A stretch of DNA of 32,184 nt from Anaerolinea sp. (GTDB lineage: Bacteria; Chloroflexota; Anaerolineae; UBA4142). The DNA is taken from contig DYLA01000001.1 in NCBI GenBank assembly GCA_020722265.1, positions 23,766 through 55,949 on the forward strand, in the 5' to 3' direction. The notes beneath the pieces are model-generated. The model had not been told where the DNA came from and made no database searches. It saw only the letters and a program-made list of their open reading frames with translations. The position numbers and the translations under genes were made by a program. Below are positions 3,538 through 20,800 of the stretch, piece by piece. The stretch's first letter is position 1; each line of letters opens with the position of its first letter.

Positions 3538-4542
3538 GTGGACGAGTCACGCCAACCGGCTTTTCACATTCGCGAGATTCCCATCTGGGGCGACCTCATT
3601 CTCGCGCCGATGGATGGTTATTCCGATTTGCCGTTCCGTTTGCTCGCGCGCGAATTCGGCTCCGCTATGTCGTACACCGAGTTCGTCAACGTGGACGCGC
3701 TGTCCGCGCGCGCGCCGAACCCAGTCGTCCAGCGCAAACTCTGCTTCGACCCGCGCGAGAGACCGATTGCGTTTCAAATCTACGGGCATGACGAAGAGCA
3801 TCTGGTCGAGATGGCGCGTCGCCTGGAGGATCAAGGCGCGAGTATTATTGATGTCAATATGGGCTGCTACATCCACAAAATCGCCGGGCGCGGGGCGGGC
3901 GCGGGACTGCTGCGCGAGCCAGCGAAGGTGGCGCGCCTCTTCGCGCGGCTGACGCGCGCGCTGCGCGTGCCGGTCACCGCGAAGATTCGGCTGGGCTGGG
4001 ACGACCAAACGCGCAACTATCTGGAGATCGCGCGCATCCTCGAAGAGAACGGCGCGAGCCTAATCGCCGTTCACGCGCGCACCAAAGTGCAAGGGTACGC
4101 CGGACGCGCGGACTGGGACACCATCGCCGAAATCAAGCAAGCCGCGCACATCCCGGTCGTCGGCAACGGCGACGTGCGAACCGTCGCCGACATCGCGCGG
4201 AGGCGCGCCCAGACCGGCTGCGATGGTGTGATGATCGGGCGCGGTGCGATCGGCAACCCGTGGATTTTCTCGCGCCGCGATCGCAACACGGTGCCACTCG
4301 CCGAGAAAATCGCGTTGATGCGGCGTCACCTCGCGCACAACGTCGAGTTCTACGGCGAACCGCGCGGGGTGATTCTCTTTCGCAAACACGCGTACCGCTA
4401 CACGCAGGGCTTGCCGTGCAGCGACCGCTTGCGCGCCGCGTTGATGCGTTGCGTCACGCGGGGCGAGTTCGACGTTTTGATAGATGAGTACGCCAACTCT
4501 CCCGCTCGTTCGAACTTGCCGGCGGGTGGTCAACCGCAATGA
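3538..4542 (+). CDS. dus: tRNA-dihydrouridine synthase
   Basis: LILAPMDGYSDLPFR, INVNMGC-like DVNMGCYIHKIAGRGAGAGLL, VTAKIRLGWDD, AVHARTKVQGYAGRADWD, VVGNGDV, GVMIGRGAIGNPWIF. GTG start chosen from promoter position. Confidence 0.92.
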   Translation: MDESRQPAFHIREIPIWGDLILAPMDGYSDLPFRLLAREFGSAMSYTEFVNVDALSARAPNPVVQRKLCFDPRERPIAFQIYGHDEEHLVEMARRLEDQGASIIDVNMGCYIHKIAGRGAGAGLLREPAKVARLFARLTRALRVPVTAKIRLGWDDQTRNYLEIARILEENGASLIAVHARTKVQGYAGRADWDTIAEIKQAAHIPVVGNGDVRTVADIARRRAQTGCDGVMIGRGAIGNPWIFSRRDRNTVPLAEKIALMRRHLAHNVEFYGEPRGVILFRKHAYRYTQGLPCSDRLRAALMRCVTRGEFDVLIDEYANSPARSNLPAGGQPQ

Positions 4543-7500
4543 ACACCGCTTCACCCTCTCCCGAACACACCGCGGAGACACACCCCGAATCGGTTCAGCC
4601 GATTTTCTACGATCCGCACGCGCGGCGTTGGAGGCGTTTTCGCGGCGCGGTGATGTTGCTCGCTTTCGTGCTGATGGCGATTTTCGGCGCGCTCACGTTC
4701 AGTATCCTGACGACGCCCGCGCTGCCGCGCCTCGCGCTGACGCCGACGCGCGGAGTTTCGCCGGCGAGTCACGTTTCCGCCGGCGCGCCGACGCCGACGG
4801 CACAGCCGACGATTCCCGCCAAGTACGTCGCCGCGCCGCCGGCGCTGCCAACGCTGCCGCCGCGCGCGACGGCGACACGCGTCGCGGTACCGGGCAAGGC
4901 GACCGTCGCGAACCCAACCGCGCAGGCGCATCGCGACCAAGCCAAAGCCGCGTACGTGGAGAAAAAAGCCACGCAAAGCGCGCGTCAACTCGGCAATCGG
5001 TTCCACCCCGCTGCCACCCCCACCGCGCGTCCGCCCACTCCGCGCGCGCGCGCCACACCGACGGCGATGCCGCGCGCGACGCCCGCGACCTTCAACCCCG
5101 TCACGCCCACCGCGCGCGGTCGGATGGAACTCGTTGCCTTTTTCGTGGACTGGGACGATGCGAGTCTGGCATCGTTGAAGCAGAATCTCGCGACGATTGA
5201 CAAACTGGTTCCCGAATGGCTGCATCTCGCGGACGCGCGAGGGACGCTCGCGCCGGACGCCCCGTGGCGACAGCAGATGGTCATCGAGTACATCCGCAAG
5301 CATCGCCCCGATTTGCCGATTGTGCCGCTCCTCAACAACTATAACGCAGCGACCGAAGAGTGGGAAGGCGAGAAACTTGCCCAGATGCTGGCTGACCCGT
5401 CCGCGCGCGCGCGGGTCATTCAATCGCTTTTCGATTACGTGCAGCAAAATCGTTTTGCCGGCGTCTGCGTGGATTTCGAAAACGTTCCACGCGCGAGTCA
5501 GCCTGCGCTCAAAACGTTTATGCGCGAATTGTACGCGCGGTTCCATCCGCTCGGTTGGGAGGTGTGGCAGACCGCGCCGGTGGAAGATGGCGACTGGGAC
5601 TATGCCGCGTTTGCGCAATCGAGCGACGCGTTGATTCTGATGGCGTACGACGAGCATTGGAGCGGGAGCGCGCCGGGTCCCCTCGCGTCGCAGCGATGGT
5701 TCGCGGACGCGCTGCATCGCCGGCTGGCTCAGGTGGCGCCCGCCCAGTGCTTCATCGGTATCGGGAACTATGGCTATGATTGGCTGGTGGAGGCGCACAC
5801 GGGCGCGGACATTGCCTTCCAGCGAGTGATGCTCACGGCAGAAGCGTTCGAAGCGGAAATCGTTTTCGATGCCGTGTCGCTCAACCCCACCTTCAACTTT
5901 TTCGACGACGAAGGACGCTGGCATCAGGTCTGGTATCTCGACGCGGTGACCGCGTTCAACCAGATGGCCGAATCGAATCGGTACGGCGCGCGCGGGATCG
6001 CACTGTGGCGCTTGGGCGCGGAGGACCCCTCGCTCTGGCGCGTGCTGGAGCAACGCGCGCGTCTCGACAAGAATGTGGCGAACGCGCTGCGCGAACTACA
6101 CGCCGGGCACAGCATCGAGTACGAGGGCGAAGGCGAGGTGCTACAGGTGACGGTGATGCCGCGCGACGGCGCGCGCGAAATCGCCTACGACGACCGGCTG
6201 GGTCTCGTCGTCGGCGAACGGGTGACCGCGTATCCTTCGCCGTACGTGGTGACGCGCTGGGGTGCGCACGATCCCCAGCAAATCGCGCTCACGTTCGACG
6301 ATGGACCCGATGCGCGTTACACCCCGCAGATTCTCGATATCCTGAAAGAGTACCAAGTCAAGGCAACCTTTTTCATTCTCGGCGCGAACGCCGATCTCAA
6401 TCCCGGCTTGCTCGAACGCCTCGCGAACGAGGGACACGAGATCGGCAATCACACCTTCACGCACCCAGACGTTTCGCTGATTCCGCTGGAGCAGTTAGCC
6501 CTCGAACTGAACGCGACGCAACGACTGCTCGAAAGTCGCATCGGTCGCCGGACGGTGCTCTTTCGCCCGCCCTACGGCGAGGACATCGAGCCGGAAACGC
6601 CGGCGCAAGTCAAGCCACTGTTGTACACGAGTCAACTCGGTTACTATACGATTGGGATGCAGGTGGACCCACACGACTACAAGAATCTCGACGCCGAGTT
6701 CATCCTCGCGGACGTGGTGGACGAGGTGAGGCGCGGCGAAGGACACGTGATTCTGTTGCACGATGGCGGCGGCGAGCGTTCGCAAACGGTCGCCGCGCTT
6801 CCCGGCATCATCGAAGAATTGCGCGCGCAAGGATTTCGCTTCGTCACGATTTCCGAGTTGCTGGGATTGACGCGCGAGGAGGTGATGCCGCCGCTTCCGC
6901 CGAGTGAGCGTCTCCTCGCCGGCGTGAACGATGCGGGCTTTCAAATCGCGAGCGCGGTGAATGGATTTTTCTACGCGCTCTTCGCACTCGGAATCGGATT
7001 GGGGGTGTTGCGTTTCGGCGTCATCGGTTTCCTCGCCGTCGGCGAGTGGCTGCGCGCGCGCCTCACGACGTATCCGGCGCGCTACCAGCCCTCGGTGAGT
7101 GTCATCGTCCCAGCGTACAACGAGGCGAAGGTGATTGGCAAGACGCTCGACGCGCTCCTCGCCTCGACGTATCCGAACTTGGAGATCATCGTCGTGGACG
7201 ATGGTTCGACAGACGACACCGCCGCGCGTGTCATCGCGCGCTACGGCGATAATCCGCGCGTGCGCGTGTTCACCAAACCGAACGAGGGCAAGGCGCGCGC
7301 GCTCAATTTTGGCATCCAGCAATCGCGCGCGGACATCGTCGTCGCGCAAGACGCGGACACGATCGTCCTGCCGAACGCGATCGCGAAATTGGTGCGCCAC
7401 CTCGCGTTGCCGGGTATCGGCGCGGTCGCGGGGAACGCCAAGGTGGGCAACCGCGTCAACCTGCTGACCGAGTGGCAGGCACTCGAGTACATCACGAGCC

Positions 7501-8201
7501 AGAACCTCGACCGCCGCGCGTTCGCGCTGCTGAACTGCGTCACCGTTGTCCCCGGCGCGATCGGCGCGTGGCGGCGTGCCCTCGTCGTCGAACTGGGCGG
7601 GTTTACGAGCGACACGCTCGCGGAGGACGCGGACCTGACGCTGCGGATTTTGCGGCGCGGCTATCAGATTGATTACGAGGAGGAAGCGATCGCGCTCACC
7701 GAAGCACCGGACACGGTGCGCGCGTTTCTCAAACAGCGATTTCGTTGGATGTTCGGCACGCTCCAAGCCGCGTGGAAACATCGCGACACGCTCTTGCGCC
7801 CGCGCTATGGCGCGCTCGGTTTCGTCGCGCTGCCGAACGTCTTGGTGTTCCAAATCCTTTTTCCGCTCATTTCGCCGATTATGGATTTGATGGTGTTTGG
7901 GTCGGCTGCCGCGCTGGGCGTGCAGTTGATTCAACATCCTGCCGCGCCAGCCAGCGAGGCGTTTGCGCGCGTGCTGTTGTTCTATGTCTTTTTCCTCGTG
8001 CTCGATTTTCTCGCCGCGCTGCTCGCGTTTGCGTTGGAGCGCCAAGAGGATGGGTGGCTGCTCTTCTGGCTTTTCTTCCAGCGCTTTTGCTATCGCCAAC
8101 TGATGTACTATGTCGCCGCCAAATCCACGCTGGCTGCGCTGCGCGGGCGATTGGTGGGCTGGGGTAAGTTGGAACGCAAAGCGACGGTGGGGGTGGGGTG
8201 A
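4539..8201 (+). CDS. Tripartite membrane protein: GH18-like glycosidase, NodB/CE4 polysaccharide deacetylase, and GT2 glycosyltransferase
   Basis: 1220 aa. N-terminal TM, then a Pro/Thr/Ala-rich linker. GH18-like: FAGVCVDFENV and LILMAYDEHW. CE4: IALTFDDGPDARYTPQILD, HEIGNHTFTHP, RPPYGED. GT2: VSVIVPAYNEAKVI, VVDDGSTDDT, QDADT, EDADLTLR, QRFRW. C-terminal TMs. Confidence 0.92.
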   Translation: MNTASPSPEHTAETHPESVQPIFYDPHARRWRRFRGAVMLLAFVLMAIFGALTFSILTTPALPRLALTPTRGVSPASHVSAGAPTPTAQPTIPAKYVAAPPALPTLPPRATATRVAVPGKATVANPTAQAHRDQAKAAYVEKKATQSARQLGNRFHPAATPTARPPTPRARATPTAMPRATPATFNPVTPTARGRMELVAFFVDWDDASLASLKQNLATIDKLVPEWLHLADARGTLAPDAPWRQQMVIEYIRKHRPDLPIVPLLNNYNAATEEWEGEKLAQMLADPSARARVIQSLFDYVQQNRFAGVCVDFENVPRASQPALKTFMRELYARFHPLGWEVWQTAPVEDGDWDYAAFAQSSDALILMAYDEHWSGSAPGPLASQRWFADALHRRLAQVAPAQCFIGIGNYGYDWLVEAHTGADIAFQRVMLTAEAFEAEIVFDAVSLNPTFNFFDDEGRWHQVWYLDAVTAFNQMAESNRYGARGIALWRLGAEDPSLWRVLEQRARLDKNVANALRELHAGHSIEYEGEGEVLQVTVMPRDGAREIAYDDRLGLVVGERVTAYPSPYVVTRWGAHDPQQIALTFDDGPDARYTPQILDILKEYQVKATFFILGANADLNPGLLERLANEGHEIGNHTFTHPDVSLIPLEQLALELNATQRLLESRIGRRTVLFRPPYGEDIEPETPAQVKPLLYTSQLGYYTIGMQVDPHDYKNLDAEFILADVVDEVRRGEGHVILLHDGGGERSQTVAALPGIIEELRAQGFRFVTISELLGLTREEVMPPLPPSERLLAGVNDAGFQIASAVNGFFYALFALGIGLGVLRFGVIGFLAVGEWLRARLTTYPARYQPSVSVIVPAYNEAKVIGKTLDALLASTYPNLEIIVVDDGSTDDTAARVIARYGDNPRVRVFTKPNEGKARALNFGIQQSRADIVVAQDADTIVLPNAIAKLVRHLALPGIGAVAGNAKVGNRVNLLTEWQALEYITSQNLDRRAFALLNCVTVVPGAIGAWRRALVVELGGFTSDTLAEDADLTLRILRRGYQIDYEEEAIALTEAPDTVRAFLKQRFRWMFGTLQAAWKHRDTLLRPRYGALGFVALPNVLVFQILFPLISPIMDLMVFGSAAALGVQLIQHPAAPASEAFARVLLFYVFFLVLDFLAALLAFALERQEDGWLLFWLFFQRFCYRQLMYYVAAKSTLAALRGRLVGWGKLERKATVGVG

Positions 8202-8207
8202 CGCGCT

Positions 8208-8236
8208 TTGCCGCGATTGCCGTTTTGCGCTATAAT
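8208..8236 (+). promoter_or_regulatory. Sigma70-like promoter for topIB
   Basis: TTGCCG-17 bp-TATAAT, then a GAGGAG Shine-Dalgarno at 8261-8266. Confidence 0.65.
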
Positions 8237-8275
8237 CCGCCCCGACTTTCTGACTTTTGTGAGGAGCGAATAGAC

Positions 8276-10666
8276 TTGAAGTGGCAGACCCTTCGGCACA
8301 ACGGGGTCGCGTTCCCGCCGCCGTACGACTATCGCGGGCTTACCGTCCGCATCGCCGGCGAGCGCGTCCAACTCGAACCGCTGCCGGAAGAGATGTTGAT
8401 GGCTTGGGCAAAGAAGAAGGACACCCCCTATGTGCTCGACCCGGTGTTCCAACAGAATTTTCTGGACGACTTGAAAAAAGTCCTGCCCGAACGGTTCGCC
8501 GGCATCACGCTCGCCGAGATTGATTTTTCCGAACTGCACGCGATCGCCGAGCGCGACAAGACCGCGCATCTCTCCGACGATGAGAAGAAGCAGCGCGCTG
8601 CCGAGCGCAAACGGACGCGCGAAGAACTCAAGGCAAAATTCGGCACCGCGATCATTGACGGCGTAGAGACCGAAGTGGGCGCGTACCTCGTCGAACCGCC
8701 GGGACTTTTGATGGGGCGCGGCGCGCATCCCCTGCGCGGCAAGTGGAAGCGACGCGTTGTCCCGGAGGACGTGACGCTCAACTTGGATGAAGATGCCCCC
8801 ATCCCTCCCGCGCCCGCAGGACACCACTGGGGCGAAATTGTCCACGAACACGATTCGATGTGGATCGCCTCGTGGCACGACGAACTCTCCGACAAGCGCA
8901 AGTACATCTGGCTTGCCGATTCGGCGCGTCTGCGGCAAGAGCGCGACAAGGGGAAATACGTCCAAGCCGCGAAACTGGAGACGAGTATCGCGCGCGTCCG
9001 CGCGGAAATCGCCAAGCGTATGGACTATCGGGACGCCCCCGCGCGCGCCGCGCTCGAACACAGTCGCGAGCGATGCCGTGCCCAGCGCGCTGCGCTCGAA
9101 GAGCGGTTGCTGGCAGCGACCGCCGTCGGCGATCGCGCGACGCGCCGGAAACTCGAAGACCAACTCGCCCAGTTGCACAAGCAAGACGCCGCGCTGGACA
9201 AACGCTTTGCCCGGCTGGAGGCCGCCGAGAGGAAAACGCGCCAACTCGCGACGGTCTGCTATTTGATTGATCGCCTCGCGATGCGCGTCGGTGACGAAAA
9301 GGACGAGGACGAAGCGGACACCGTCGGCGCGTCCACCCTGCGCGTCGAACACATCCGCCTCAATGCCGCAAGCGTCGAGTTCAATTTTCTCGGCAAGGAC
9401 AGTGTCGAGTGGCAGAAAGCGCTCCCGCGCGATCACGACGGCGCGCTCTTGGCGCGTAACCTGGAAGAGTTTATGCGCGGCAAACAGCCGGGCGATCAGG
9501 TCTTCGATCAAATTGATTCGACGCACGTCAATCGTTTTCTCGGCAGCATCGTCGAGGGACTGACCGCGAAGGTGTTCCGCACGTTTCACGCGACGGTCAC
9601 CGTGCGCGACTATCTCCGTCGTCAGGCGCACCTCACTCCCGACGCGCCGATGTACGAGAAGGAGTACGTCGCGAAACTCGCGAATCTGGAAGCGGCAGTG
9701 GTGTGCAATCACAAGCGGACGCCGCCCAAGAATTGGCAGGCGAGTCTCGCCAAGCGCGAGGCGGAGTTGGCGCGTTTACGCGCCGCCTCGCCGAATCCGG
9801 CAAAGTTCGAGGCGCAGATTCGGCTGCGCGAGCAATCGCTGCAAAAATGGCGCGCCGCGCCTCCCGACCCGGCGAAACTTGCCGCACAGGTTCACGCGCG
9901 CGAAGAAGCACTGCAAAAAGCCCAAGCCGCTGTCGCCGCGCTCCCGCAACTGGATGCGCGGGTTCAGGCGCGCCAAGCCGCGCTCGACCGCTGGCGCGCC
10001 GCGCAGAAATCGGCGCAAGCCGCCGCGCAAGAGATTTTGCAGAAAAAGCAAGCCGCGCTCGCCAAACTCGAAAAGTACAAGCCGCCGAAAGCGAAGCGAG
10101 CGCTCGCCGCGTACAAACGGCGACTGCGCGCCGCGCGCCAGGCGGTTGCCGAGACGAAAAAAGCCAACGACGCGAAACTCGAACGGCTCGCGGCGCGCGT
10201 CGCGGCGGCGCAGCGCGCGCTCAAGACGGCGACGCGCACCCAACGGGAGCAGACGCGGCGCGCGCAGGCACGCCTCGCCCACGCGCGCGTCGCGCTCGAA
10301 CGCGCGCGTCACGCGCGCGAGACCAAGCCATTGCGCTATGCGGAGCGACTCGCCCAAGCGGAGGAGGCGCTCGCCCAAGCGCGACGCGCGTCGGAAGCGG
10401 CGCGGCAAAATCATGCCGAACGCGTCGAGCGCGCCGCGCGTCAACTCGACCTAGCCAAGCGGACGCGCGATTACAATCTCGGCACGTCGCTCAAGAATTA
10501 CATTGACCCACGCGTGTACAAAGCGTGGGGCGATTACATCGGTTACGATTGGAAGCGACTGTACACCAAGGCGCTCCAGCGCAAATTTGCGTGGGTGGAA
10601 CGCGAGCGAACCCAGTGGCGAAGTGTAGGTGTACATTCCGCAAGGGGGCAATTCGATGCAAGATGA
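8276..10666 (+). CDS. DNA topoisomerase IB, eukaryotic (nuclear) type
   Basis: KWQTLRHNGVAFPPPY, EPPGLLMGRGAHPLRGKWKRRVVPEDV, DRLAMRVGDEKDEDEADTVGASTLRVEHI, FLGKDSVEW, GLTAKVFRTFHA, VCNHKRTPPK, LGTSLKNYIDPRVYKAWG, QRKFAW. Counterparts of the human catalytic residues R488/K532/R590/H632/Y723 are all present. TTG start has SD GAGGAG 9 nt upstream. Confidence 0.95.
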   Translation: MKWQTLRHNGVAFPPPYDYRGLTVRIAGERVQLEPLPEEMLMAWAKKKDTPYVLDPVFQQNFLDDLKKVLPERFAGITLAEIDFSELHAIAERDKTAHLSDDEKKQRAAERKRTREELKAKFGTAIIDGVETEVGAYLVEPPGLLMGRGAHPLRGKWKRRVVPEDVTLNLDEDAPIPPAPAGHHWGEIVHEHDSMWIASWHDELSDKRKYIWLADSARLRQERDKGKYVQAAKLETSIARVRAEIAKRMDYRDAPARAALEHSRERCRAQRAALEERLLAATAVGDRATRRKLEDQLAQLHKQDAALDKRFARLEAAERKTRQLATVCYLIDRLAMRVGDEKDEDEADTVGASTLRVEHIRLNAASVEFNFLGKDSVEWQKALPRDHDGALLARNLEEFMRGKQPGDQVFDQIDSTHVNRFLGSIVEGLTAKVFRTFHATVTVRDYLRRQAHLTPDAPMYEKEYVAKLANLEAAVVCNHKRTPPKNWQASLAKREAELARLRAASPNPAKFEAQIRLREQSLQKWRAAPPDPAKLAAQVHAREEALQKAQAAVAALPQLDARVQARQAALDRWRAAQKSAQAAAQEILQKKQAALAKLEKYKPPKAKRALAAYKRRLRAARQAVAETKKANDAKLERLAARVAAAQRALKTATRTQREQTRRAQARLAHARVALERARHARETKPLRYAERLAQAEEALAQARRASEAARQNHAERVERAARQLDLAKRTRDYNLGTSLKNYIDPRVYKAWGDYIGYDWKRLYTKALQRKFAWVERERTQWRSVGVHSARGQFDAR

Positions 10667-12215
10667 TGCGAGCGCGACAACTCCAGCCTTTCCGGCGCGA
10701 CGTGCGTGGCTGTGGCAGCCGAATCTCATCGTCTTTGTGTCGAGCGCGTGCATTATGATTCTCGAACTCGTCGCGGGGCGGATGATCGCGCCGCACGTGG
10801 GCGTCTCGCTGTACACGTGGACGAGCGTGATTGGCGTCGTCCTCGCTGGCATCAGCCTGGGCAATTATCTTGGCGGACGCTTGGCAGATCGGTGGGCGTC
10901 GCTCCGTCTGCTCGGCATCGTCTATCTGTTCGCCGCGCTGACGAGTCTCGTCGTGCTGTACGTGGACCGGACGTACCGCCTCACGCCGGACGATTGGTCT
11001 ATCGTCGTCGAAATCATCGCGCTCACGGCGGCGATGTTCTTTGTCCCCTGCACGCTCCTTGGGATGATCTCGCCCATCGTTGCGAAACTCGCCGTGAGCG
11101 ATCTCGCCACGACCGGCAGTACCGTCGGCAAGATTTACGCGGCGGGCGCGGCGGGGAGTATCGTTGGCACGTTCGCGACGGGGTTCGTCTTGATTTCGTG
11201 GTTCGGCACGTACACGATTGTCTGGGGGGTCGCGCTGCTGCTGGGCGCGCTGGGACTGTTCTTTTTTCTGGCTGGGCGTTGGCAAGCCGCGCTGTTCGCG
11301 GTGGTGATCATCGTGGGCGGGTCGGCGCTGGCGTCCAATCAGAATTGGCTGCGCGGTCCGTGCGTGCGCGAGACGAATTACTATTGCATCAAGATTTACG
11401 ATACGCAAGAGGGGGACGAGCCGGTGCGCCAGGTGGTGCTCGACCATCTGGTGCATAGTTACGTGTCGCTGACGAATCCGCGTACCCTCATCTATGGTTA
11501 CGAAAAGGCGTACGCCGAGGTCGCCGCGTATCGCGCCGCGCGGGACGAGCATATGAGTTTCTTGATGATCGGCGGCGGCGGTTATACGTTCCCGCGTTAT
11601 GTGGACGCCGTTTATCCGGGCAGCGACGTGCATGTGGTTGAAATTGATCCGGGCGTCACGCAAGTGGCGTACGATTTGCTTGCGCTGAATCGCGAGGCCA
11701 AGATCGTGACGTACAACGAAGACGCGCGTCTGTTCTTTGCGCGCGCGCCGACGATGCAGTACGATCTGGTGCTCGGCGACGCGTTCAATCACTATGCGGT
11801 GCCGTACCACCTGACCACCCAAGAGTTCAACGATCGCGTGCGCGCGTGGCTCGCCGACGATGGTTTGTACGTCATCAACCTCATTGACGGACCGCGCGGC
11901 GAGTTCGTTCGCGCGTACTTTCACACACTGCGCCAGACGTTTCGCTATGTTTACCTGGCGGAAGGGAATTACGATTGGCGCAAAGCGACGCGCAGTTTCT
12001 TTTTGCTCATCGCCACTGATACGCCGCTCGACACGGCCGAGTTCGCGCACTTGGATGCCGGCGACGGCGACGCGCTCCTCGCGCGCCTGCTCGCGGACGA
12101 CGCGGAGGTCAACCGCCTCCTCACCGAAGCGCCGCTTGTCCTGCTCACCGACCAGTACGTGCCGGTAGACCAGATGCTCGCGTCGGTGCATCGCGACGAG
12201 GCACCGCCGGAATGA
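10656..12215 (+). CDS. Membrane-anchored spermidine-synthase-like protein (fused MFS/spermidine synthase type)
   Basis: N-terminal TM helices (FVSSACIMILELVAGRMIAPHVGVSLYTWTSVIGVVLAGISLGNYLGGRLAD), then a SpeE-like Rossmann domain (FLMIGGGGYTFPRYV, HVVEIDPGVTQVA, YDLVLGDAFNHYAVPYHLTTQEF). Overlaps the topIB stop by 11 bp. Confidence 0.85.
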   Translation: MQDDASATTPAFPARRAWLWQPNLIVFVSSACIMILELVAGRMIAPHVGVSLYTWTSVIGVVLAGISLGNYLGGRLADRWASLRLLGIVYLFAALTSLVVLYVDRTYRLTPDDWSIVVEIIALTAAMFFVPCTLLGMISPIVAKLAVSDLATTGSTVGKIYAAGAAGSIVGTFATGFVLISWFGTYTIVWGVALLLGALGLFFFLAGRWQAALFAVVIIVGGSALASNQNWLRGPCVRETNYYCIKIYDTQEGDEPVRQVVLDHLVHSYVSLTNPRTLIYGYEKAYAEVAAYRAARDEHMSFLMIGGGGYTFPRYVDAVYPGSDVHVVEIDPGVTQVAYDLLALNREAKIVTYNEDARLFFARAPTMQYDLVLGDAFNHYAVPYHLTTQEFNDRVRAWLADDGLYVINLIDGPRGEFVRAYFHTLRQTFRYVYLAEGNYDWRKATRSFFLLIATDTPLDTAEFAHLDAGDGDALLARLLADDAEVNRLLTEAPLVLLTDQYVPVDQMLASVHRDEAPPE

Positions 12216-15788: not shown

Positions 15789-16643
15789 ATGACGTTGCTG
15801 AATTCGCACCGCCAGTTTTCGCCGCTGCGTTTGGGGCGCGCGCTCTCCGCGCACGCCGTGATGGTGTTCGCCGTCGCGCTGACCTTGTTCCCGATGGTGT
15901 ACGCGCTGTTGGTCAGCACGCAGACGACGCAAGAGTATTACACCTTTCCGCCGAATCTATTGCCCGGCACGGGGACGCTCCACAACTTTGCCGTCGCGTT
16001 CGAACGCGCCGCGCTGGCGCGCCTGGTTTTCAACACGACCCTCATCTCGCTCGCCGTCGCGTTCGGCAAGATGATTTTGAGCGTCACGGCGGGCTTTGCG
16101 TTCGTCTATTTCGATTTTCGTGGCAAACTGGTGTTCTTCATTGTGATTTTCTTGACGCATATGCTCCCCGTGCCGGTGCGTATCGTGCCGACGTTTCAAT
16201 TGATGGATCAACTGGGCTGGGTCAACACGTACTGGGCGCTGACGATTCCGTTTTTTGCGAGTGCCACCGGGACACTCTTGTTTCGGCAGTTGTATATGAC
16301 GGTCCCCGCGTCGCTGGCTGACGCCGCGCGGATCGACGGCGCAGGTCCTTTGCAATTCTTGTGGAACATCATCGTTCCCATCTCGCGCACCAATTTGATG
16401 GCGCTCTTTCTGATCGAGTTTATTTATATGTGGAATCAGTACCTGTGGCCCCTCATCGTCGCGAACGCCGAGACGACGCGTGTCATCCAAGTCGGTTTGA
16501 AAGTGCTGATTGCGACGGACGCGGCGGTCGAGTGGAATATCGTAATGGCGGGCGTCGTCGTCGCTATGATTCCGCCGCTCATCGTTTTGCTGTTGACGCA
16601 AAAAAGTTTGATCACGGGCTTGTCCTTGTTCGAGGAAAAGTGA
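15789..16643 (+). CDS. ABC sugar/glycerol-phosphate permease, UgpE/MalG-like, system 1 (full-length copy)
   Basis: 284 aa with EAA-type loop LADAARIDGAGPLQFLWNIIVPIS. Confidence 0.9.
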   Translation: MTLLNSHRQFSPLRLGRALSAHAVMVFAVALTLFPMVYALLVSTQTTQEYYTFPPNLLPGTGTLHNFAVAFERAALARLVFNTTLISLAVAFGKMILSVTAGFAFVYFDFRGKLVFFIVIFLTHMLPVPVRIVPTFQLMDQLGWVNTYWALTIPFFASATGTLLFRQLYMTVPASLADAARIDGAGPLQFLWNIIVPISRTNLMALFLIEFIYMWNQYLWPLIVANAETTRVIQVGLKVLIATDAAVEWNIVMAGVVVAMIPPLIVLLLTQKSLITGLSLFEEK

Positions 16644-16645
16644 AA
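16005..16645 (+). repeat. Direct repeat copy 1 (641 bp), 3' part of the ugpE-like gene
   Basis: Aligned base by base with 20160-20800. One mismatch (C at 16036, T at 20191). Confidence 0.95.
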
Positions 16646-20082: not shown

Positions 20083-20193
20083 GTGATCAAACCAATCGCA
20101 TTGGTGTTGTTAGGTGTGTTGTTGTCCGCGTGCGCGCCGCGCGTCAGCGACGCGGCGCCCGCGCCGCGCTGGCGCGCCTGGTTTTCAACATGA
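20083..20193 (+). pseudogene. Truncated lipoprotein N-terminus
   Basis: GTG-start ORF MIKPIALVLLGVLLSACAPRVSDAAPAPRWRAWFST*. Signal peptide with lipobox LSAC, then runs into the duplicated permease fragment and stops at the SNP-created TGA. Confidence 0.7.
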
Positions 20194-20800
20194 CCCTCAT
20201 CTCGCTCGCCGTCGCGTTCGGCAAGATGATTTTGAGCGTCACGGCGGGCTTTGCGTTCGTCTATTTCGATTTTCGTGGCAAACTGGTGTTCTTCATTGTG
20301 ATTTTCTTGACGCATATGCTCCCCGTGCCGGTGCGTATCGTGCCGACGTTTCAATTGATGGATCAACTGGGCTGGGTCAACACGTACTGGGCGCTGACGA
20401 TTCCGTTTTTTGCGAGTGCCACCGGGACACTCTTGTTTCGGCAGTTGTATATGACGGTCCCCGCGTCGCTGGCTGACGCCGCGCGGATCGACGGCGCAGG
20501 TCCTTTGCAATTCTTGTGGAACATCATCGTTCCCATCTCGCGCACCAATTTGATGGCGCTCTTTCTGATCGAGTTTATTTATATGTGGAATCAGTACCTG
20601 TGGCCCCTCATCGTCGCGAACGCCGAGACGACGCGTGTCATCCAAGTCGGTTTGAAAGTGCTGATTGCGACGGACGCGGCGGTCGAGTGGAATATCGTAA
20701 TGGCGGGCGTCGTCGTCGCTATGATTCCGCCGCTCATCGTTTTGCTGTTGACGCAAAAAAGTTTGATCACGGGCTTGTCCTTGTTCGAGGAAAAGTGAAA
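20160..20800 (+). repeat. Direct repeat copy 2 (641 bp) of the ugpE-like 3' region
   Basis: Identical to 16005-16645 except 20191 (T for C). Confidence 0.95.
20190..20798 (+). pseudogene. N-terminally truncated UgpE-like permease (202 aa, lacks residues 1-82 of the full copy)
   Basis: Protein identical to the C-terminal part of the 15789-16643 product. Begins at a new ATG (NTTL to NMTL). Confidence 0.8.

Follow-up and report, generated by a model that had tools for sequence, protein, structure and literature searches.

How a eukaryote-type topoisomerase IB (TopIB) in a bacterial genome came to carry a linker far longer than that of the human enzyme, and what such an arm might do, is the question raised by this locus. 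We analysed the whole stretch of DNA (the window, 32,184 nucleotides), in which the sole open reading frame matching topoisomerase IB domains was a GTG ORF of 822 residues at 8198-10666. Pfam placed Topoisom_I_N (PF02919, 3e-66), Topoisom_I (PF01028, 4.6e-62) and Topo_C_assoc (PF14370, 1.9e-18) in that order in its product, each above the curated cut-off. Small bacterial and poxviral TopIB enzymes (2f4q, 2h7f) have the catalytic fold in common with this protein but are short, are marked by the absence of Topoisom_I_N, and have a different, small capping domain and no such linker, whereas the window protein carries both PF02919 and PF14370. The nearest solved structures were Caldiarchaeum TOP1 (6z01) and human topoisomerase I, and Foldseek matched the window model to 6z03 (E 2e-46) and 1k4t (E 9.6e-38). 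Five residues, R337, K374, R435, H479 and Y742 in TTG numbering, were invariant across 41 sequences, and we take them by motif to be the counterparts of human R488, K532, R590, H632 and Y723. Judged from its sequence, the gene product is a eukaryote-type TopIB that has the N, core and C domains and a complete set of five catalytic residues.

Because the promoter-like site (score 10/12, 0.3 expected in shuffles, and the sole promoter match at the gene) lies downstream of GTG 8198, and because GAGGAG precedes TTG 8276, translation probably starts at TTG 8276. His505 and Tyr768 are named in GTG-8198 numbering and are H479 and Y742 in TTG numbering. The reading frame and motifs of the original prediction were recovered at the positions it had given, with CNHKRTPPK at residues 503-511, residue 768 as the catalytic Tyr within LGTSLKNYIDPR and the segment 9746-10462 equal to 239 codons (feature coordinates are collected in Table 1). 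This is the one TopIB of the host assembly (2.68 Mb, 209 contigs), which also encodes a TopA-type enzyme and the A subunit of a gyrase or topoisomerase IV. The gene immediately preceding the topoisomerase (window 4539-8201) codes for a 1220-residue protein in which a glycoside hydrolase 18-like domain is fused to polysaccharide deacetylase and glycosyltransferase family 2 domains. Window 10629-12215 encodes a membrane protein with a weak MFS match, and the C-terminal half of this protein may resemble a spermidine synthase-type fold. Elsewhere in the window, a perfect 641-bp direct duplication (16005-16645 and 20160-20800, 4155 bp apart) takes in the 3' portion of a gene for a sugar ABC-transporter-like permease, its second copy being a truncated ORF, and is either a recent duplication or an assembly artefact.

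Table 1 Features of the topoisomerase gene, its core insert and its linker
Feature	Window position	Strand	Basis or remark
Promoter-like site, sigma-70-like, TTGCCG-17-TATAAT	8208..8236	+	Consensus scan 10/12; sequence match only, function not implied
Eukaryote-type DNA topoisomerase IB gene	8276..10666	+	Probable TTG start, 796 aa
f1-specific core insert, 65 residues, helical hairpin between two core helices	9035..9229	+	Interval lengths and AF2
Catalytic His505 (human H632)	9710..9712	+	Invariant column H479 (TTG numbering)
Ascending arm, four 24-residue units	9755..10042	+	Lag-24 autocorrelation z=7.8; AF2 helices interrupted near Pro motifs
Ascending units	A1 9755-9826, A2 9827-9898, A3 9899-9970, A4 9971-10042	+	Unit table
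Tip segment, 46 residues	10043..10180	+	Turn near 10076-10093 (YKPPKA); AF2 turn 601-606 (TTG numbering)
Descending-arm single predicted helix, 123 residues, about 18 nm	10094..10462	+	AF2 helix 607-729 (TTG numbering), pLDDT mostly about 90 or above
Descending arm, four 25-residue units	10181..10480	+	Lag-25 autocorrelation z=5.2; hydrophobic period 3.57
Descending units	B1 10181-10255, B2 10256-10330, B3 10331-10405, B4 10406-10480	+	Unit table
Catalytic Tyr768 (human Y723)	10499..10501	+	Invariant column Y742 (TTG numbering)

The distance from His505 to Tyr768 is 263 residues, against 91 between H632 and Y723 of the human enzyme, and the segment between the CNHKRTPPK and Tyr motifs is 249 residues long, 239 of them covered by 9746-10462. 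Four ascending units of 24 residues, a tip of 46 and four descending units of 25 account for the linker without remainder. Against a null of 1000 composition-preserving shuffles, the ascending arm of the window protein gave autocorrelation peaks at lag 24 (z=7.8) and lag 48 (z=6.1), and the lag-24 and lag-25 peaks of the two arms were matched by 0 of 1000 shuffles. The expanded, basic and repeat-built linker of the original prediction was therefore borne out, with its four 24-residue units exactly in register, but its account of the repeat had missed the four 25-residue units of the descending arm, where lag-25 autocorrelation reached z=5.2 in the window and 6.3 as the family mean, and where the hydrophobic period of 3.57 residues equals 25/7. 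The ascending lag-24 peak was likewise family-wide, at a mean z of about 7.2-7.7. Tandem Repeats Finder reported no 72-bp DNA array over the ascending arm; the repeat is visible at the protein level only, and the duplications are therefore old. Units A1-A3 were mutually similar (z 4.2-7.1), with A4 a weak member (z 1.8-2.4 to A1-A3). Set against the units of the sister family, A1-A3 were like its A1 and A4 like its A2, and B1-B3 were like its B1 (B2 weakest) and B4 like its B2, which is the pattern expected if one unit per arm had been amplified separately.

AlphaFold2 (AF2) models of the window protein and of a sister-family protein each contained a single linker hairpin, in keeping with the hairpin anticipated for this enzyme, at a mean pLDDT of 91.6 each, although AF2 may be overconfident on Ala-rich helices. 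In their own numbering, the ascending arm spans 487-600 in the window protein versus 422-487 in the sister-family protein, and the descending helix 607-729 (123 residues) versus 494-566 (73 residues), so that the window arm is longer by 48 residues ascending and 50 descending with the turn in the same place. The two models and the 3.57-residue period together point to a pair of antiparallel helical arms with a short turn between them. With a rise of 1.5 angstrom per residue, 123 residues correspond to about 18 nm, or roughly 50 bp of DNA, and the predicted 18-nm helical arm would be about three times longer than the human one.

Across about 100 distinct homologs we determined the distance between His and Tyr; the set included the window protein's family (f1) and its sister family in the same order (f2). 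The gene was present in 18 of 21 genomes of the order, including all 11 high-quality ones. The distance was 262-263 in 10 of 11 f1 genomes (8 of 9 genera) and 165 in L010, the sole genome of the ninth genus; it was 165 in six of seven f2 genomes and 128 in the remaining one (L009). In other same-class Chloroflexota it was 109-117, and in most archaea 56-66. The f2 linker follows the plan 2x24 + 46 + 2x25, with a weak repeat signal in its ascending arm (lag-24 z=1.4), and a 46-residue tip is shared by the 165 and 263 classes; short archaeal linkers (His-Tyr 65) have a tip-equivalent segment of about 44-45 residues. When the 263 class was aligned with the 165 class, the ascending arm showed a 48-residue gap and the descending arm gaps adding up to 50, and the partition 15 + n*24 + 46 + n*25 + 10 was exact for n=2 and n=4 and held within one or two residues for n=0. 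We rejected a universal 49-residue ladder of linker lengths, since 99, 122, 128 and 154 fall off the grid; the 116/117 class fits a step numerically, yet belongs to another clade and has no such repeats.

Other linkers in the set departed from this plan in their own ways. The core of L009 groups closely with L004, yet its linker is 128 rather than 165 residues and apparently unrelated in sequence, and it looks as if the entire linker was replaced. In three Thaumarchaeota of the 122 class (L059, L061 and L079), paired cysteines at the linker tip (CVVCN...CEDEKLH type) suggest a small metal-binding knuckle at the hairpin end. Open frames in L014, L024 and further f38 class members run to about 735-790 residues, whereas in L014 and L024 the C domain stops near 563-578; some 160-170 residues therefore seem to extend these TopIBs at the C-terminus. 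Viral relatives were found on four contigs (proteins of about 470-600 aa), and the one linker measured there was short (about 68).

A second difference lies in the core. The interval between two core helices was 99-100 residues in 10 of 10 f1 members measured, against 35 in almost all homologs outside f1 (33, 36 or 43 in a few), and AF2 modelled the insert as helix 254-284 plus an N-terminal extension of helix 287-334 (TTG numbering). The core insert and the long linker are separable, because L010 has the insert with a 165-residue linker.

Trees were built from the core only, with the linker and core insert excluded. In a small, careful core tree f1 and f2 grouped together with support of 100/99 and adjoined Nitrososphaerota/Bathyarchaeota-type enzymes, while the remaining enzymes of the class fell in a separate clade with other archaea; the simplest reading of this unrooted tree is two separate acquisitions from archaea. 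In the best tree the nine 262-263 proteins formed a clade with L010 outside (weak support, 68/68), which suggests that the 165 linker preceded the 263 linker. Among eight f1 members the linker was an identical 243 codons long at a mean identity of 60.5% and a median dN/dS of about 0.33, the core-insert interval had 51% identity and a dN/dS of 0.28, and the core had 83.5% identity and a dN/dS of 0.12 from only six equal-length pairs, all of these ratios being rough with dS near saturation. The linker is under purifying selection, as supported by computation. A fixed length combined with a changing sequence has the look of a structural rod under selection, and the arm is probably a working part because its length is almost invariant across the family.

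Charge is concentrated in one region of the linker, with a mean net charge of +12.0 for the tip (nine f1 members), +7.0 for B1 and +3.3 for B2, and of -0.3 to +1.9 for every other unit; L010, whose tip has a charge of -2, shows that not every f1 tip is basic. While the expanded basic arm of the original prediction stood, this concentration at the tip, the balanced 48+50 growth and the core insert had escaped it. Homology, the intact active site, both periods, the 48+50 growth, the near-invariant length, purifying selection and the predicted hairpin are all supported by computation; the structure and modular growth of the arm are well supported, and its function is what we infer from them. With moderate confidence, we favour a rigid antiparallel hairpin, grown in paired 24+25 modules, that acts as a spacer between the active site and a basic tip 17-18 nm away. 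The linker has been lengthened in paired modules of 24 residues ascending and 25 descending, four per arm in f1 and two in f2, and the proximal near-neutral units may form a stiff spacer that holds the strongly basic tip and the distal part of the descending arm at about that distance. From there the basic tip could reach DNA about 50 bp downstream, or another duplex where supercoiled DNA crosses itself. A contact of this kind would hold the enzyme more firmly on supercoiled DNA and govern the friction that strand rotation and religation meet, much as the human enzyme's shorter linker does.

A more specific version, which we offer tentatively and consider doubtful, would make the arm a module-built molecular ruler in which paired 24+25 units set the distance where the basic head grips a second DNA site; if so, that site might be another duplex at a supercoil crossing, and swivelling would be topology-sensitive at about 17-18 nm. 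Alternatively, the arm might serve as a rod on which a partner protein (RNA polymerase, gyrase or a nucleoid protein) docks, without action on DNA. Long helical hairpins commonly dock proteins, and f1 also gained the second helical insert in its core, but no conserved gene neighbour of TopIB hinting at a partner was found across the order and the charge pattern points to nucleic acid, which makes this alternative unlikely. It is less likely again that the arm makes no distal contact and sets dynamics only, its flexibility or drag slowing strand rotation or religation: deletion or replacement of the human linker does alter religation and drug response (PMC3699648), but the concentration of charge at the tip would be left unexplained. 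That arm length influences religation or rotation is nonetheless plausible by analogy, since changing the human linker affects religation and, in CsTOP1, the linker has a basic tip and runs almost parallel to the DNA cavity (PMC8748870).

A further possibility is that the arm tracks downstream DNA, with one 24/25-residue unit per helical turn, each touching the backbone, and growth by whole-turn additions. The length of a unit (about 36-37 angstrom at 1.5 angstrom per residue) is close to a B-DNA turn (about 35 angstrom), but 25 residues are also seven helical turns (3.57 residues per turn), a number that would be kept anyway for coiled-coil phase, and the charge does not recur from unit to unit, since A1-A4, B3 and B4 are near neutral. 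With the charge located in the tip, B1 and B2, we prefer the model of a stiff spacer bearing a basic head to turn-by-turn tracking, which we regard as improbable. Neutral accretion of GC-rich Ala/Arg/Lys sequence without function, to which the composition of the linker (Ala 28%, Arg 15%) and its GC-rich codon positions might point, is already contradicted by the length held in 10 of 11 f1 genomes, the identity retained without length change, the dN/dS and matched growth at two separate places in the gene, and deserves next to no credence. The original prediction had looked to short-linker homologs without a repeat as a sign of local low-complexity expansion: such homologs occurred outside the order (the 116/117, 122, 154, 99 and Asgard 165 classes had no dominant 24 or 25 peak and mainly generic coiled-coil periods such as 7, 11, 14 and 18), but within f1 the length is fixed and the sequence conserved, and that explanation was rejected.

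Among known systems, the Caldiarchaeum subterraneum TOP1 (PDB 6z01/6z03), a BAT-type archaeal TopIB from the neighbouring clade in the tree, has the same N, core and C domains and catalytic residues at 36-37% identity (structural alignment), but these enzymes have short linkers and no core insert. Human topoisomerase I (1k4t, 1a36) has the same core fold and a hairpin linker between the His and Tyr segments, but the linker is about 77 residues and the 65-residue core insert is absent. Other Chloroflexota eukaryote-type TopIBs (116/117 class) have the same domains and a linker longer than the archaeal one, yet sit on a separate tree branch without 24/25 repeats. The Asgard archaeal TOP1 (L095, 165 here) likewise has a long linker in a eukaryote-type TopIB, and longer linkers in Asgard TOP1 are already in print (PMC8748870), but it belongs to another lineage and shows heptad-type periods of 7/14/21/28 instead of 24/25. 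The 92-residue linker of Plasmodium falciparum Top1 raised the religation rate when placed in the human enzyme (PMC3699648), although it is only 16 residues longer, by a coil-helix-coil added at the tip. No paper pairing TopIB with Chloroflexi was found among open-licence full texts, and an arm of such size with paired 24/25 modules, fixed length and an extra core insert was not found in the literature searched.

Point mutants, deletions and swaps have tied the human TopIB linker to religation and drug response, in which it may act through DNA contact, flexibility or drag. Natural relatives of the window enzyme carry zero, two or four matched modules while the core is conserved, and one f1 member has the core insert but only two modules; linker length is therefore a clean variable for rotation and religation assays.
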